Positions 23,819 through 33,730 of a DNA stretch of 64,000 bases are shown piece by piece. A program made the position numbers and the translations under genes. Within the stretch, counting starts at the first letter, position 1. Each line of letters opens with the position of its first letter. Below the pieces are notes generated by a model. It was not told the DNA's origin, did not search any database, and saw nothing but the letters and a program-made list of their open reading frames with translations. Origin of the DNA: Clostridiales bacterium (lineage in GTDB: Bacteria > Bacillota > Clostridia > Caldicoprobacterales > DTU083); contig DUOA01000013.1 of the NCBI GenBank assembly GCA_012839095.1, positions 1 through 64,000 of the forward strand, given 5' to 3'.

Positions 23819-23885
23819 ATAGGTTATAGTATTTTTGTATTTCTTAGTTAATAAAACCTTCCCTGCATCGTCTTATGGAGGAAAA

Positions 23886-25016
23886 ATGATTAAAGAGTTT
23901 TTGGAAGCTTTTTTGCTGGTTTTTATAGCTGAATTTGGGGACAAGAGTCAAATTCTGGCCATGACTTTGGCAATAAGGTATCCTGTAAAAAAAGTTCTGC
24001 TTGGGATCCTGATTGGTGCTTTTCTGAATAATGGCCTGGCTGTCCTGTTGGGCAGTCTTCTTTCTGCTTTCATACCCTTGAACGCAGTGCAAATCGCAGC
24101 AGGCTTTATTTTTATTGCATTTTCTTTATTGACTCTCAGGCCTGAGGAAACTGAGGAAAACGGGAAAGAGCATAAGATACCCCTGGGTTCTTTGCTCACC
24201 ATTGCCTTTGTTTATTTTATTGGTGAATTTGGGGACAAGACTCAGCTGACGGCAATTACCCTTACTTCACAGGCAGCTTTTCCACTGATGATCCTGGGAG
24301 GTACTGTAATGGGCATGTTAGCTTCCGGCGGCATGGGGATTATAATAGGAAGAAAACTCGGCGATAAAGTGCCTGAAACAATAGTACGTCTTTTATCTTC
24401 AATTGTTTTTTTCTTTTTTGGGGTATCCAGGCTGGCCCGGCATCTGCCTCAAAAATATCTGACTGTACCCGGCATTATTCTGTTTGCCCTTGTATATACA
24501 GTTCTCGCTGTATTGTTAATCAGACCCATGCTCCGAGCATACAAGCAGGGCTATGAATCAGAGTGGATTCGCAGATCACGGGAACTGCATCAATACTATC
24601 ACCGCATGCAGCAGGATTTTGACAGCATATGTCTGGGTACAGAGAATTGCGGCAGGTGTCAGGGAAACAGATGCATTGTTGGATATGCCAAAACCCTGGC
24701 TCTCTTCGGACTGGATGAAAAGTCAGAAGGCCATATGGCAAATGAGAAAATTAACAGCTGTTTTCGAAATAAACCATTCAGCAGGGAACAGGCAGCTGAC
24801 AGCCTGCTGACAACCTTGGATTATTTGAAGAGACATCCTTCTGACAGTAATTCAGAGCTAATCCATGAGATCAGAAGAAGCCTGGAAATAATTATATTTG
24901 GTAAATGTGTTCAGGAAATTAACAATTGGGAAGAATATGAGCATAGATTGTTAAGGGCTTTAGATGATAATGGAATAATCTTGTCAAACAAATATCACAA
25001 ACCTTATTCTTATTGA
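23886..25016 (+). CDS. GDT1/TMEM165-family transporter with a Cys-rich cytosolic tail
   Basis: The 376-residue protein has the two family motifs, E16-FGDK and E114-FGDKTQ, in two three-helix repeats. Bacterial members (MneA-type) export Mn2+, and eukaryotic ones carry Mn2+/Ca2+ and H+. After residue 190 there is an extra membrane helix (IILFALVYTVLAVLLI) and then about 160 soluble residues. These carry C249-x5-C255-x2-C258-x4-C263, a plausible metal site, and a helical end. Most family members stop after the sixth helix. I chose ATG 23886 after GGAGG 23877-23881. The protein probably moves a divalent cation. The tail could sense metal or redox state. Confidence 0.83.
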   Translation: MIKEFLEAFLLVFIAEFGDKSQILAMTLAIRYPVKKVLLGILIGAFLNNGLAVLLGSLLSAFIPLNAVQIAAGFIFIAFSLLTLRPEETEENGKEHKIPLGSLLTIAFVYFIGEFGDKTQLTAITLTSQAAFPLMILGGTVMGMLASGGMGIIIGRKLGDKVPETIVRLLSSIVFFFFGVSRLARHLPQKYLTVPGIILFALVYTVLAVLLIRPMLRAYKQGYESEWIRRSRELHQYYHRMQQDFDSICLGTENCGRCQGNRCIVGYAKTLALFGLDEKSEGHMANEKINSCFRNKPFSREQAADSLLTTLDYLKRHPSDSNSELIHEIRRSLEIIIFGKCVQEINNWEEYEHRLLRALDDNGIILSNKYHKPYSY

Positions 25017-25141: not shown

Positions 25142-25170
25142 TTGTCTAGTACAAAACGATATGGTATAAT
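25142..25170 (+). promoter_or_regulatory. Promoter of the duplicated lipoprotein gene
   Basis: TTGTCT at 25142-25147 and TATAAT at 25165-25170 are 17 bases apart, with a TGG just before the -10. Transcription would start near 25177. This places the true start codon at 25217 and not at the upstream in-frame codon at 25142. Confidence 0.7.
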
Positions 25171-25216: not shown

Positions 25217-26263
25217 ATGAAAAAACTGCTTTCAGTAGTACTTGTGCTTGCCCTGATATTGATTATGTCAGTAAGCTGCACAGGTTCCAACAATTCCACA
25301 CCAACGCCAACGCCGGACCAGAGCACCGGCAGCAACAATTCAGGCGGCATAGTAAAGCTTGGTCTGGGTCAGAACATATCCATAGCCAGCTCAAAGAATG
25401 CAGACGACGAAAATGGCCCTGTCGGGCAGGCTGACACTGTTATGGCTGCTGTCGGCATTGATGCAGAAGGCAAGGTGGTTTCTGTCACAATTGATACTGC
25501 ACAAGCCCGGGTTAACTTTGACAAGGACGGCAATATGACAACCGATCCTGCTGTAGAGCTGAAAACCAAGGCAGAGTTGGGCGACGACTATGGAATGAAA
25601 GCCAGATCTGAAGTAGGAGAATGGTATGAGCAGATTGCAGCGCTGGAAAAATGGATGACAGGCAAAACAATAGACGAAATAAGGAGCCTGAAAACCAATG
25701 ACAAAAATGCTCCGGATGATCCTGAACTCACTTCTCTTGTTACCATAAGTGTACAGGATTATATTGCCGCTGTTGCTGAAGCCTTTGAAAATGCCAGAGA
25801 AGTAAACGGTGCTGAAAAGGTTGGTTTGGGACATGTTATCTCTGTAGCCAAATCCAAAGGCATAGACGGCGAAAACGGTCCTGTTGCTCAGGTTGATACA
25901 GTAATGGCAGCTGCTGCCTTTACTGCAGATGGTAAAACTGCAGGTGTCATAATCGATACGGCTCAGGTACGCGTAAACTTTGACACAGATGGAAAATTGT
26001 CATCTGATCCCGCTGCAGAGCTGAAAACCAAGGTAGAGCTGGGTGATGACTATGGCATGAAAGCAAGGTCCGAAGTCGGAGAATGGTATGAACAGATTGC
26101 TGAACTGGAAAAATGGATGGCAGGTAAAACCATTGAGGAAATCAGGAACTTGAAAACCAATGAAAACTCTGCACCTGATGTTCCCGAGCTGACTTCCCTT
26201 GTAACCATCAGCGTTCAGGATTATATAGCTTCAGTTTCAGAAGCATACGATAAAGCAAAATAG
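25217..26263 (+). CDS. Lipoprotein with a tandemly duplicated FMN-binding-like domain
   Basis: The 348-residue protein has a lipoprotein signal ending MSVSC21, a Ser/Thr/Pro linker, and two near-identical domains, residues 47-194 and 201-348 (period 154). Each repeats GQADTVMAA or AQVDTVMAA, LGDDYGMKARSEVGEWYEQ and LTSLVTISVQDYIA. The last motif sits where FMN-binding domains carry the ApbE target [ST]GA[ST]x[ST]. Here it reads SLVTIS (173-178 and 327-332), with the Thr and last Ser kept and Gly-Ala changed to Leu-Val. ApbE is encoded next. An extracytoplasmic flavoprotein is a reasonable hypothesis; the function is unproven. GGAGGGAAAG precedes the ATG. Confidence 0.7.
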   Translation: MKKLLSVVLVLALILIMSVSCTGSNNSTPTPTPDQSTGSNNSGGIVKLGLGQNISIASSKNADDENGPVGQADTVMAAVGIDAEGKVVSVTIDTAQARVNFDKDGNMTTDPAVELKTKAELGDDYGMKARSEVGEWYEQIAALEKWMTGKTIDEIRSLKTNDKNAPDDPELTSLVTISVQDYIAAVAEAFENAREVNGAEKVGLGHVISVAKSKGIDGENGPVAQVDTVMAAAAFTADGKTAGVIIDTAQVRVNFDTDGKLSSDPAAELKTKVELGDDYGMKARSEVGEWYEQIAELEKWMAGKTIEEIRNLKTNENSAPDVPELTSLVTISVQDYIASVSEAYDKAK

Positions 26264-26296
26264 AAGGTCAACTGCTTTATAATTCAGCACTTTACT

Positions 26297-26326
26297 GACT
26301 CCCCTTAAAACGGGGAGTCTTTATTA
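26297..26326 (+). terminator. Rho-independent terminator after the lipoprotein gene
   Basis: GACTCCCC (26297-26304) pairs with GGGGAGTC (26312-26319) and TTTATTATT follows. Confidence 0.88.
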
Positions 26327-26391
26327 TTGGTACAGCCCAAAACGCTTAAATTAAACAAGATGTGAAGCCGGTTTAAATCCTGACCGCCAAG

Positions 26392-26420
26392 TTTACAAAT
26401 ATTATCAGATTTGCTATTCT
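26392..26420 (+). promoter_or_regulatory. Promoter of apbE
   Basis: TTTACA at 26392-26397 and TATTCT at 26415-26420 are 17 bases apart, 17 bases before the apbE start. The lipoprotein terminator lies between the two genes, so they are probably separate transcripts. Confidence 0.55.
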
Positions 26421-26436
26421 GAATACAGGTGATAAA

Positions 26437-27519
26437 ATGAAAAAGATACAGGTTATGCTATTGGTTTTAGTTCTATTAGCTGTAGTGCCCACAGGATGCA
26501 GACAGAGAAAGTATGAGAGATTCAGTGGAAGCTTTTTTGATACTTTCGATACCTATACTACATTTATAGGTTATACAAGAAATAAAGAGGAGTTTGATCG
26601 CTATTTTGACATGGTGCAGTCCCGCTTCCGCGAACTGCATAAATTATTCGACAAGTATAATAACTATGAAGGAATAAACAATATTAAAACAATAAACGAC
26701 AATGCAGGAATTCAGCCTGTAAAAGTAGAAAAGGCAATAATAGATCTCATCCTTTTTTCCAGGGAATGGTATGCTGAAACCGGCAGAAAAACCAATATAG
26801 CCATGGGGCCTGTACTTGAGATATGGAAAAGGTATTTTGATGATGCATCATACGATCCTGTCAATACCGATATTCCTTCTTTGAAGGAACTTGGGGCTGC
26901 CTCCATGCTTGTAGATTTGGACAGAGTGATAGTAGATGAGGAGGACCATACAGTTTACCTGCCGGACAAAGGGATGAGTCTGGATGTAGGAGCTGTAGCC
27001 AAGGGTTTTGCCACTGAATTGGTTGCCAGGGAATTAAAAGAAGCAGGCTTTCTTTCAGGCATTATAAGTCCGGGCGGCAATATCCGCACCATTGGAAAGC
27101 CTCTTGACAAAACACGGCAACGCTGGGGAATTGGCATACAGGATCCTGATATGCCTATAATCAACGATGCTCAAAACACATTGGACACGATTTTTGTGGG
27201 CGAAGCTTCAGTGGTAAGCAGCGGAGATTATCAGCGTTACTACATGTATGAGGGCAGAAGAATTCACCATATTATTGATCCCGATACCCTTATGCCCGGT
27301 GAAAATTTCAGAGCGGTTACAGTTGTTGCCGAGGATGCAGCTACAGCTGACTTTTTGTCCACCACCCTCTTTCTGCTTTCTCTCGAAGAGGGCATGAGTC
27401 TGCTGGAAGACCTGGACGGGGTGGAGGCAATTTGGGTTATGCCTGACAGGTCAGTGCATTTCTCTGAAGGTTTGCAGGATATGCTGAAGAGTCAGGGAGC
27501 CTCCGGGGTTTCTGATTAA
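26437..27519 (+). CDS. apbE: FAD:protein FMN transferase (ApbE), lipoprotein
   Basis: This 360-residue protein has a lipoprotein signal ending VPTGC21 and the ApbE fold: FDTFDTYTTF near the start, LDVGAVAKGFATE, ISPGGNIRTIGKP, and HHIIDPDTLMPG near the end. ApbE cleaves FAD and attaches FMN covalently to a Thr or Ser of exported target proteins. The usual targets are FMN-binding lipoproteins and the NqrC/RnfG subunits; none of the latter is in the window. The upstream duplicated lipoprotein is the only candidate substrate seen here. AGGTGAT precedes the ATG. Confidence 0.92.
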   Translation: MKKIQVMLLVLVLLAVVPTGCRQRKYERFSGSFFDTFDTYTTFIGYTRNKEEFDRYFDMVQSRFRELHKLFDKYNNYEGINNIKTINDNAGIQPVKVEKAIIDLILFSREWYAETGRKTNIAMGPVLEIWKRYFDDASYDPVNTDIPSLKELGAASMLVDLDRVIVDEEDHTVYLPDKGMSLDVGAVAKGFATELVARELKEAGFLSGIISPGGNIRTIGKPLDKTRQRWGIGIQDPDMPIINDAQNTLDTIFVGEASVVSSGDYQRYYMYEGRRIHHIIDPDTLMPGENFRAVTVVAEDAATADFLSTTLFLLSLEEGMSLLEDLDGVEAIWVMPDRSVHFSEGLQDMLKSQGASGVSD

Positions 27520-31908: not shown

Positions 31909-32751
31909 ATGCATACCATGTGGAAGGGTTCGATTAGTTTTGGCCTGGTTAATATACCTATCAGGATGTTTGCTGCAACAGAGGACAAGGATATTAGTTT
32001 CAGATACCTGCACAGAGAGTGTAAGACACCTATAAAATATGAAAAAACATGTCCTGTCTGTAAGAAGGAAGTTTCACAGGACGATCTTGTAAGGGGTTAT
32101 GAGTATGAACCGGGCAGATTTGTGATAATAGAGGACGAGGAGCTGCAGTCACTTCAGCAGTCAAGGGGAAGAGCCATCGAAATTATGGATTTTGTTGATT
32201 TAAGAGAAATTGATCCTATTTATTTTGTTAAATCCTATTATCTGTCACCCCAGGAAACAGGTGAAAAAGCATATAATCTTCTCCGGGAGGCAATGAAGCA
32301 AACCGGAAGGATAGCTGTAGCAAAGATCACCATGCGCAACAAACAGTCTCTGGCAGCTCTCAGGGTATATCATAACATAATGATTATGGAAACCATCTTT
32401 TATCCGGATGAGGTGCGAGATCAGTCACATGTGCCCAATATACCGGTGGACAGCCAGCTTGATGAAAAGGAATTAGCTATGGCTGTTAAGTTGATTGAAA
32501 ACCTGTCTGCAAAATTTGATCCGGCAAAATATACAGATGAATACCGCAGGGAGCTGCTGGCGATGATACACAAGAAAATCGAGGGAGACGAAGTTGTCCG
32601 GGCCAGGGAATCCATCCCTCAAAGAAATGTTATAGATTTAATGCAGGCGTTGCAGGAAAGCCTTAAGGAAACAGAACATCTGAAACAGAGCAATTCCGCT
32701 CCCGCTAAAAAGACAGCAGCCAGGAAGAAAAATACCAACACAGCCGTATAA
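31909..32751 (+). CDS. ku: Ku protein, non-homologous end joining
   Basis: This 280-residue protein is full length for bacterial Ku. It begins MWKGSISFGLVNIPIRMF after a short lead and has RYLHRECKTPIKYEKTCP (residues about 30-47). The end is Lys- and Ala-rich (KKTAARKKNT), as is common in Ku tails that bind DNA and recruit the ligase. Ku homodimers ring DNA ends at double-strand breaks. It is the first of three end-joining genes, 16 bases before the ligase. AAAGGAG precedes the ATG. Confidence 0.95.
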   Translation: MHTMWKGSISFGLVNIPIRMFAATEDKDISFRYLHRECKTPIKYEKTCPVCKKEVSQDDLVRGYEYEPGRFVIIEDEELQSLQQSRGRAIEIMDFVDLREIDPIYFVKSYYLSPQETGEKAYNLLREAMKQTGRIAVAKITMRNKQSLAALRVYHNIMIMETIFYPDEVRDQSHVPNIPVDSQLDEKELAMAVKLIENLSAKFDPAKYTDEYRRELLAMIHKKIEGDEVVRARESIPQRNVIDLMQALQESLKETEHLKQSNSAPAKKTAARKKNTNTAV

Positions 32752-32767
32752 GGAACGAGGAAATAAA

Positions 32768-33730
32768 ATGGATTGGATAACTCCTATGGAGCCCATATCT
32801 TCCAGCAGCATTCCAAGTGGAGAAGAGTGGATATTCCAAATTAAGTGGGACGGAATCAGGGGACTTACCTACTATCAAAGGAGACAGGGCGAAGATCATG
32901 TTCGCATATTCACAAAATCAGGACGTGAAAGAACCGAATATTATCCGGAACTGCATCATATAGGCAATCTGGTTGCAGGTAACAATGCTGTACTGGACGG
33001 AGAGATGGTGGTGCCGGACAATGATGGCAAGCCGTCCTTTCATTTGAGTCTCATCAGAGAAAAGACAGGCAGGAAGGATAAGCTGCCTCATTATATACGA
33101 AAATATCCGGTGATATATATTGTCTTTGATATATTATACCTGAATGATTGTCTTCTGACAGAACTGCCCCTGAAGGAGCGGAGAAATATACTTTATCAGT
33201 CGCTGAATCAGGACGGTAATATAGCAATTACAGAGGATTTTGAAGATGGTCCGGGCCTGTATGATTTAATGAAAAGGAAGGGCTGGGAAGGAATTGTATC
33301 CAAAAAGAAAAACAGCTTGTATTGTCCTGCCAAAAATCACAGCGAGTGGTTTAAACACAAAAACCTTAAGAAAATTCTGGCAGCCATATGCGGTATTCAG
33401 TGGAAGGACTCTTTACCAAACTCACTTATATTGGGTATTTTTCGTGACGACAGCTGGGTATATATCGGGAAGGCATCACAAGGCTTAACTTTTGAAGAAC
33501 GGCGGCAGCTTAAGCAGTATGCAGTGAGACACCGGAATGATGATTGCCCGTTCAGGGATGTCAGGTTATGCAAGGGTGAATCATTCACATGGCTGAAGCC
33601 TGCAGTAACCTGTTGGATTCGGTTTCTGGAATGGACCAATGATGGCACCATGCGCCACCCCGCTATTCTGGGTTTTTCCCACTTATCTGCTGAACAGGCA
33701 AACGGAAAGGAATGGTCAATAGATGAGTGA
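32768..33730 (+). CDS. ligD: ATP-dependent DNA ligase, LigD ligase domain as a separate protein
   Basis: This 320-residue protein has the adenylation lysine in FQIKWDGIRGL (motif I), later ligase motifs including VLDGEMVV and VSKKKNSLY, and an OB-fold end (FEWTNDGTMRHP-like sequence). It should seal breaks held by Ku. In many bacteria this domain is fused to the polymerase domain, sometimes with a nuclease. Here it is separate and overlaps the polymerase gene by 8 bases. No phosphoesterase domain is present. Confidence 0.92.
   Translation: MDWITPMEPISSSSIPSGEEWIFQIKWDGIRGLTYYQRRQGEDHVRIFTKSGRERTEYYPELHHIGNLVAGNNAVLDGEMVVPDNDGKPSFHLSLIREKTGRKDKLPHYIRKYPVIYIVFDILYLNDCLLTELPLKERRNILYQSLNQDGNIAITEDFEDGPGLYDLMKRKGWEGIVSKKKNSLYCPAKNHSEWFKHKNLKKILAAICGIQWKDSLPNSLILGIFRDDSWVYIGKASQGLTFEERRQLKQYAVRHRNDDCPFRDVRLCKGESFTWLKPAVTCWIRFLEWTNDGTMRHPAILGFSHLSAEQANGKEWSIDE

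Follow-up and report, generated by a model that had tools for sequence, protein, structure and literature searches.

A two-domain lipoprotein encoded beside apbE in Clostridia and the variant flavinylation site predicted in both of its domains

The lipoprotein gene and apbE

The window, that is, the whole stretch of 64,000 nucleotides that was analysed, contains a lipoprotein gene followed by apbE as the next gene, as an earlier note on this DNA had described. Both are real open frames that run in the same direction with 173 bases between them, and apbE is intact. The features of the region are listed below.

25142..25170, + strand: promoter-like site, TTGTCT-17-TATAAT with TG before the -10 (consensus match only)
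25217..26263, + strand: lipoprotein gene, 348 aa, with signal peptide, lipid-anchor site at Cys21 and two FMN-bind2-like domains
25349..25804, + strand: domain 1, residues 45-196 (AlphaFold2 pLDDT 95)
25724..25744, + strand: putative variant flavinylation site 1, E-L-T-S-L-V-T, residues 170-176, Thr176
25811..26260, + strand: domain 2, residues 199-348 (full-length model pTM 0.84)
26186..26206, + strand: putative variant flavinylation site 2, E-L-T-S-L-V-T, residues 324-330, Thr330
26297..26319, + strand: terminator-like hairpin between the lipoprotein gene and apbE, 8 pairs, 6 of them GC
26437..27519, + strand: apbE, FAD:protein FMN transferase, lipoprotein, 360 aa (PF02424, E 4e-64)

The promoter-like site lies upstream of the lipoprotein gene, and the position of the hairpin before apbE suggests that more substrate than enzyme would be made. 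A low-complexity linker separates the domains of the lipoprotein from Cys21, which is invariant in 35 full-length relatives. The description of the two domains as near-identical was right as to their number but overstated their likeness, since the identity between them is 71% (107 of 150 aligned residues). The site in each domain is PELTSLVTISVQDYIA (E-L-T-S-L-V-T-I-S), with the Thr at position 176 or 330, so that the reported SLVTIS, with Leu-Val in place of Gly-Ala, is indeed present in both copies.

Inspection by eye of the surrounding genes revealed a two-repeat UPF0016/TMEM165-like membrane protein encoded upstream (23835-25016), whose C-terminal extension holds Cys motifs (ENCGRCQGNRC); the same Cys-motif extension is encoded upstream of the lipoprotein in one other locus (L002). 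Adjoining Ku-like and LigD-ligase-like genes at 31909-33730 looked like an ordinary end-joining pair.

A conserved variant site in a family related to FMN-binding domains

Relatives of the lipoprotein were collected from a scan in which each species was represented by a single genome and from a survey of the window's class that covered 292 genomes. The scan yielded 20 relatives from Clostridia and closely related groups, the most distant with 27% identity, and the survey gave strong matches in 30 of the 292 genomes, the window's genome being counted among them; the family is widespread in Clostridia. The window, the 20 loci from the scan and 28 non-duplicate loci from the survey made up a set of 49 loci, from which 90 well-scored domains were taken for the site statistics. 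The number of domains per member is one, two or six.

The consensus of the site over the 90 domains is [DE]-L-x-[SA]-x-[VC]-[TS]-[IV]. The attachment position is Thr in 84 domains, Ser in 5 and a gap in 1, so that all 89 readable sites have Thr or Ser. Counting from it, position -6 is acidic in 86 domains and position -5 is Leu in 84, whereas position -3 is Ser (58), Ala (26) or Thr (4) in 88 of 89. Position -2 is the variable one (Ser 41, Leu 19, Gly 10, Lys 10, Thr 7), position -1 is mostly Val (79, with Cys in 8 and Ala in 2), and position +1 is Ile, Val or Met. Three elements of the published ApbE site, D-x-x-[ST]-G-A-[ST] (PMC12052999), persist at the right spacing, namely its acidic residue, the hydroxyl or small residue at position -3 and the Thr/Ser acceptor, and the family departs from it in the Gly-Ala alone, mostly towards x-Val; Gly is kept in a minority of sites (AGCT, AGVT). 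Because the Thr position is this constant across related domains, the SLVT motif is neither a product of chance nor of local decay.

The loss of Gly-Ala fits an alternative in which the flavin has been lost, the Thr is structural, the lipoprotein is a non-redox surface protein and the ApbE serves RnfG and similar substrates. The lack of any match of the window protein to Pfam FMN_bind (PF04205) over the gathering cut-off agrees with that explanation too. Conversely, the sole replacement of the Thr is Ser, which is also accepted by ApbE, and the appearance of a true loss can be seen in two Rnf-linked loci (L020 and L021), where ApbE is not adjacent and the first domain lacks any attachment site while the second retains SVTI.

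When the single lipoprotein sequence was compared with Pfam, NCBIfam and the sequences of the PDB, no match was found. PF04205 was matched weakly by 3 of 43 domain members (best E 1.7e-4), and in place of [ST]GA[ST] the window protein has SLVT in both copies and the family [SA]x[VC][TS]. The family profile, in contrast, matched PDB 2kzx with an E of 6e-8, the DAISGAT of 2kzx being aligned on the family Thr. The weaker matches of the class survey (E 1e-6 to 1e-12) mostly had canonical or near-canonical sites, and among them were lipoproteins with EWHEQA and TDAISGA[ST] motifs, homologous to 2kzx (E 2e-46), with one or two domains as described for PplA. Two of these weaker matches, L086 and L088, have AGVT sites; they matched the family profile with E values of 2.5e-12 and 3.4e-11 and also pass the Pfam FMN_bind cut-off; they come from the window's own order, and their loci are PPS-EetB-NusG-II-ApbE clusters. 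By hhalign, the family matched the EWHEQA/TDAISGA[ST] sister group (E 4e-13) and the group with the closest body sequence (TKRERGDxYxM...GKT; E 2e-14), in which the site is SGATM or AGATM. A direct profile comparison with RnfG-type domains was not significant; membership of the FMN_bind superfamily therefore rests on the bridges through 2kzx, L086/L088 and the hhalign comparisons. Judged from these alignments, the family shares ancestry with flavinylated FMN-binding domains via intermediates. It resembles PF04205 proteins (NqrC, RnfG, 3O6U) in having the attachment Thr before the last helix and in the homology bridged by 2kzx-type domains, and differs from them in motif and length and in the lack of a significant direct match.

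The AlphaFold models of the single domain and of the two-domain protein were confident (scores listed above), with the Thr of each domain in the loop preceding the last helix. Structural comparison with FMN-binding folds, which the earlier note had proposed as a check, did not lend support: the 50 best Foldseek hits in the PDB, for the domain model as for the full-length one, included no FMN-binding protein. The first rank was taken by IscU-like folds, with TM below 0.5 and rmsd of 5-12, and these hits were dismissed as meaningless. The fold search is the weakest point in the case for a flavin carrier.

The family may correspond to the FMN-bind2 domain, with which it was compared by description: a domain of about 160 aa, found by BLAST and not by Pfam, extracytosolic, often present in even number and forming a two-site unit (Huang et al. 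2024, PMC11334425). The window protein likewise has domains of 150 aa, in two copies and extracytosolic, and one relative has six copies (L012), although single-domain members exist in the lipoprotein family as well. In that paper and in a 2021 survey (PMC8238504), the sites are given as [ST]GA[ST]-like, and the passages on FMN-bind2 that were consulted do not discuss a loss of Gly-Ala (PMC11334425).

The ApbE subclade and the gene clusters of relatives

The window ApbE resembles ApbE/FmnB proteins in its match to PF02424 and in its conserved Asp-Ser-His and Arg residues (catalytic Ser262-His278-Asp305 and FmnB-type Arg267, by comparison with PMC12052999), and differs from them in belonging to a subclade marked by about 13 diagnostic swaps. 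An ApbE gene adjoins the lipoprotein gene in 40 of the 46 loci, out of 49, whose contig ends allow adjacency to be called. In three of the six loci without an adjacent ApbE gene, rnfC is directly downstream. In a tree, all 39 full-length ApbEs encoded next to the lipoprotein fell into one clade with full support, outside which were the ApbE paralogues of the same genomes and the ApbEs of PplA-like loci. The subclade shows nearly invariable swaps at about 13 positions, for example Asn120 (Asp elsewhere), Ala122 (Thr) and Leu285 (Gly).

An ApbE of this subclade was found in 29 of the 30 genomes with the lipoprotein compared to 16 of the 262 others (Fisher 2e-27, uncorrected for kinship), and the one lipoprotein genome without it, G218, is fragmented and has the gene at a contig end. 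Any ApbE was present in all 30 lipoprotein genomes and in 218 of the 292 (P 9e-5, also uncorrected for kinship), which is weak evidence because ApbE is common. The genome-wide link to apbE for which a survey had been suggested was found, and it is the subclade and the adjacency, not the general co-occurrence of ApbE, that carry the argument.

The subclade ApbEs of lipoprotein-free genomes share most of the diagnostic residues, and in an enlarged tree most of the added ApbEs were placed among those of the lipoprotein's neighbours, with no canonical ApbE among them and modest support (0.6). FMN_bind proteins are encoded in all 16 of these genomes, 15 of which lack any further ApbE; thus, the subclade probably handles canonical sites too. 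An exclusive dedication of the subclade to the lipoprotein was rejected, since 16 genomes carry the subclade and no lipoprotein, and a fair reading is that of a permissive or dual-specificity ApbE. In three related genomes (G123, G184 and G220), the subclade apbE has one in-frame stop within the aligned stretch and an open frame of 352-356 aa, probably reflecting a shorter C-terminus and not a broken gene.

The canonical FMN_bind proteins of the lipoprotein-free genomes mean that the ApbE has other work, in agreement with a non-flavin lipoprotein. Against this stands one relative (G023), a complete single contig in which the lipoprotein lies within a full cluster (L058) and its neighbour is the only ApbE encoded. 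A search of this whole genome gave no match for FMN_bind, NqrB/RnfD or Flavodoxin_4, whereas its five congeners all have further ApbEs and FMN_bind proteins; among the substrate types covered by this search, the lipoprotein was the sole candidate found for the G023 ApbE. The earlier note had offered either an ApbE that accepts a variant site or a domain turned into a non-flavin protein. The retained Thr, the adjacency, the bridged homology and G023 strongly favour the former, and the Thr taken together with the ApbE linkage, the subclade and G023 makes the loss of flavin improbable.

The gene order in many loci is NDH2, polyprenyl synthase (PPS), UbiA, NusG-II, EetB (PF07456), lipoprotein and ApbE. 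The NusG-II protein of these clusters is presumably EetA. This is the extracellular-electron-transfer cluster of Listeria (protein list in PMC8906456), in which EetB is the FAD-export subunit (PMC9973259), except that the lipoprotein occupies the position of PplA. Three loci of a sister genus (L125, L126 and L127) keep NusG-II, EetB, NDH2, PPS and the subclade ApbE and have no lipoprotein in the cluster.

A predicted two-flavin carrier and its electron donor

The lipoprotein is probably flavinylated by the neighbouring ApbE, as the sequence evidence suggests, and the most likely role for it would be that of a two-flavin, PplA-like electron carrier whose variant site is tolerated by the ApbE subclade. 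The ApbE would move FMN from FAD onto Thr176 and Thr330, using the variant [DE]-x-x-[SA]-x-[VC]-[TS] where the published site has D-x-x-[ST]-G-A-[ST]. The anchored protein with its two flavins would then act as an electron carrier at the outer surface of the membrane, as PplA does, receiving them in this organism from an NDH2/demethylmenaquinone chain or from Rnf and passing them to a presumed acceptor outside the cell. In the Listeria-Enterococcus extracellular electron transfer system, PplA (Cad) is a lipoprotein flavinylated on two Thr and encoded with ndh2, dmkA/B, eetA/B and the ApbE FmnB. The lipoprotein of the relatives occupies the same place in the locus, the flavin on the window protein being a prediction. 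The differences from PplA are the xVT site of the family in place of SGAT, of which one or two motifs were found in all the Cad/PplA orthologues examined (PMC7074142), and a partner ApbE from a subclade that excludes the ApbEs of the PplA-like loci analysed.

The variant site is chemically plausible, because in a model substrate the replacement of Gly by Ala or of Ala by Val each leaves about 50% of the flavinylation, whereas that of Thr by Ala leaves none (PMC12052999). As far as we found, no test of Gly to Leu combined with Ala to Val has been published, and no description of a non-canonical ApbE motif turned up in a targeted search of the open-access literature, a result that argues only weakly for absence.

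A flavin held without a covalent bond, with ApbE acting only as an FAD pyrophosphatase that supplies FMN, would be in line with the hydrolysis of FAD described for some ApbE homologues such as T. pallidum Ftp (PMC4767422). We consider it highly improbable, given that the precise residue of attachment, in the loop ahead of the final helix, is conserved as Thr or Ser. To our knowledge, moreover, there is no comparable carrier that holds its flavin by non-covalent means only.

For the window's organism, the donor is proposed with less confidence than the flavinylation. The window locus has apbE as its only adjacent partner and no electron-transfer neighbours. The earlier statement that no Rnf genes are in view holds for the window and not for the genome, in which there are two Rnf-type clusters with canonical TGAT RnfG outside the window; a third FMN_bind protein is a lipoprotein. 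Other contigs carry a second, canonical ApbE and a NDH2/NusG-II/EetB/polyprenyl synthase cluster without the lipoprotein. With Rnf and NDH2/EetB clusters elsewhere in the genome, the lipoprotein-apbE pair looks like an unlinked carrier module whose membrane parts are encoded at other loci.

The two Rnf clusters would also suit a flavinylated lipoprotein that serves as an Rnf accessory, a second exit for electrons from RnfG, in place of an NDH2/quinone-linked carrier like PplA. Rnf genes occur in seven of the clusters (L013, L014, L017, L018, L019, L020 and L021), and in L014, L020 and L021 rnfC lies directly downstream. However, the majority of loci with electron-transfer genes are Rnf-free clusters of the NDH2/PPS/UbiA/EetB type, and neither G023 nor a second genome (G123) has any NqrB/RnfD match, so that we regard an Rnf accessory as rather unlikely. 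Both donors, the NDH2 chain and Rnf, may feed the same lipoprotein family.

Flavin-based electron transfer has been surveyed largely by means of Pfam FMN_bind and the SGAT motif, and both miss the lipoprotein family, so that the ApbE genes adjoining it would look like orphans; 670 genomes with orphan apbE were left over in one survey (PMC8238504). Should the variant site be in use, ApbE would follow a wider substrate rule than stated, surface electron carriers would be present in more Clostridia than counted, and the subclade might provide a second, possibly separate flavin-tagging system. More tentatively, a changed or widened specificity of the subclade might constitute a second flavinylation code, [DE]-x-x-[SA]-x-[VC]-[TS], which canonical ApbEs would use poorly and on which the surface electron transfer of this branch of Clostridia would rely.

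Two further proteins were noted during the survey of relatives. The six-domain member (L012:1333-4257) is a secreted protein of 975 aa in which every site is xVT; its gene adjoins apbE, NusG-II and EetB-like genes, and the product is possibly a six-flavin protein. In a protein of 527 aa (L095:2662-4242), three 2kzx-like domains that read DTVASVS come after a single canonical FMN_bind domain (SGATLSS), apparently an independent loss of Gly-Ala.
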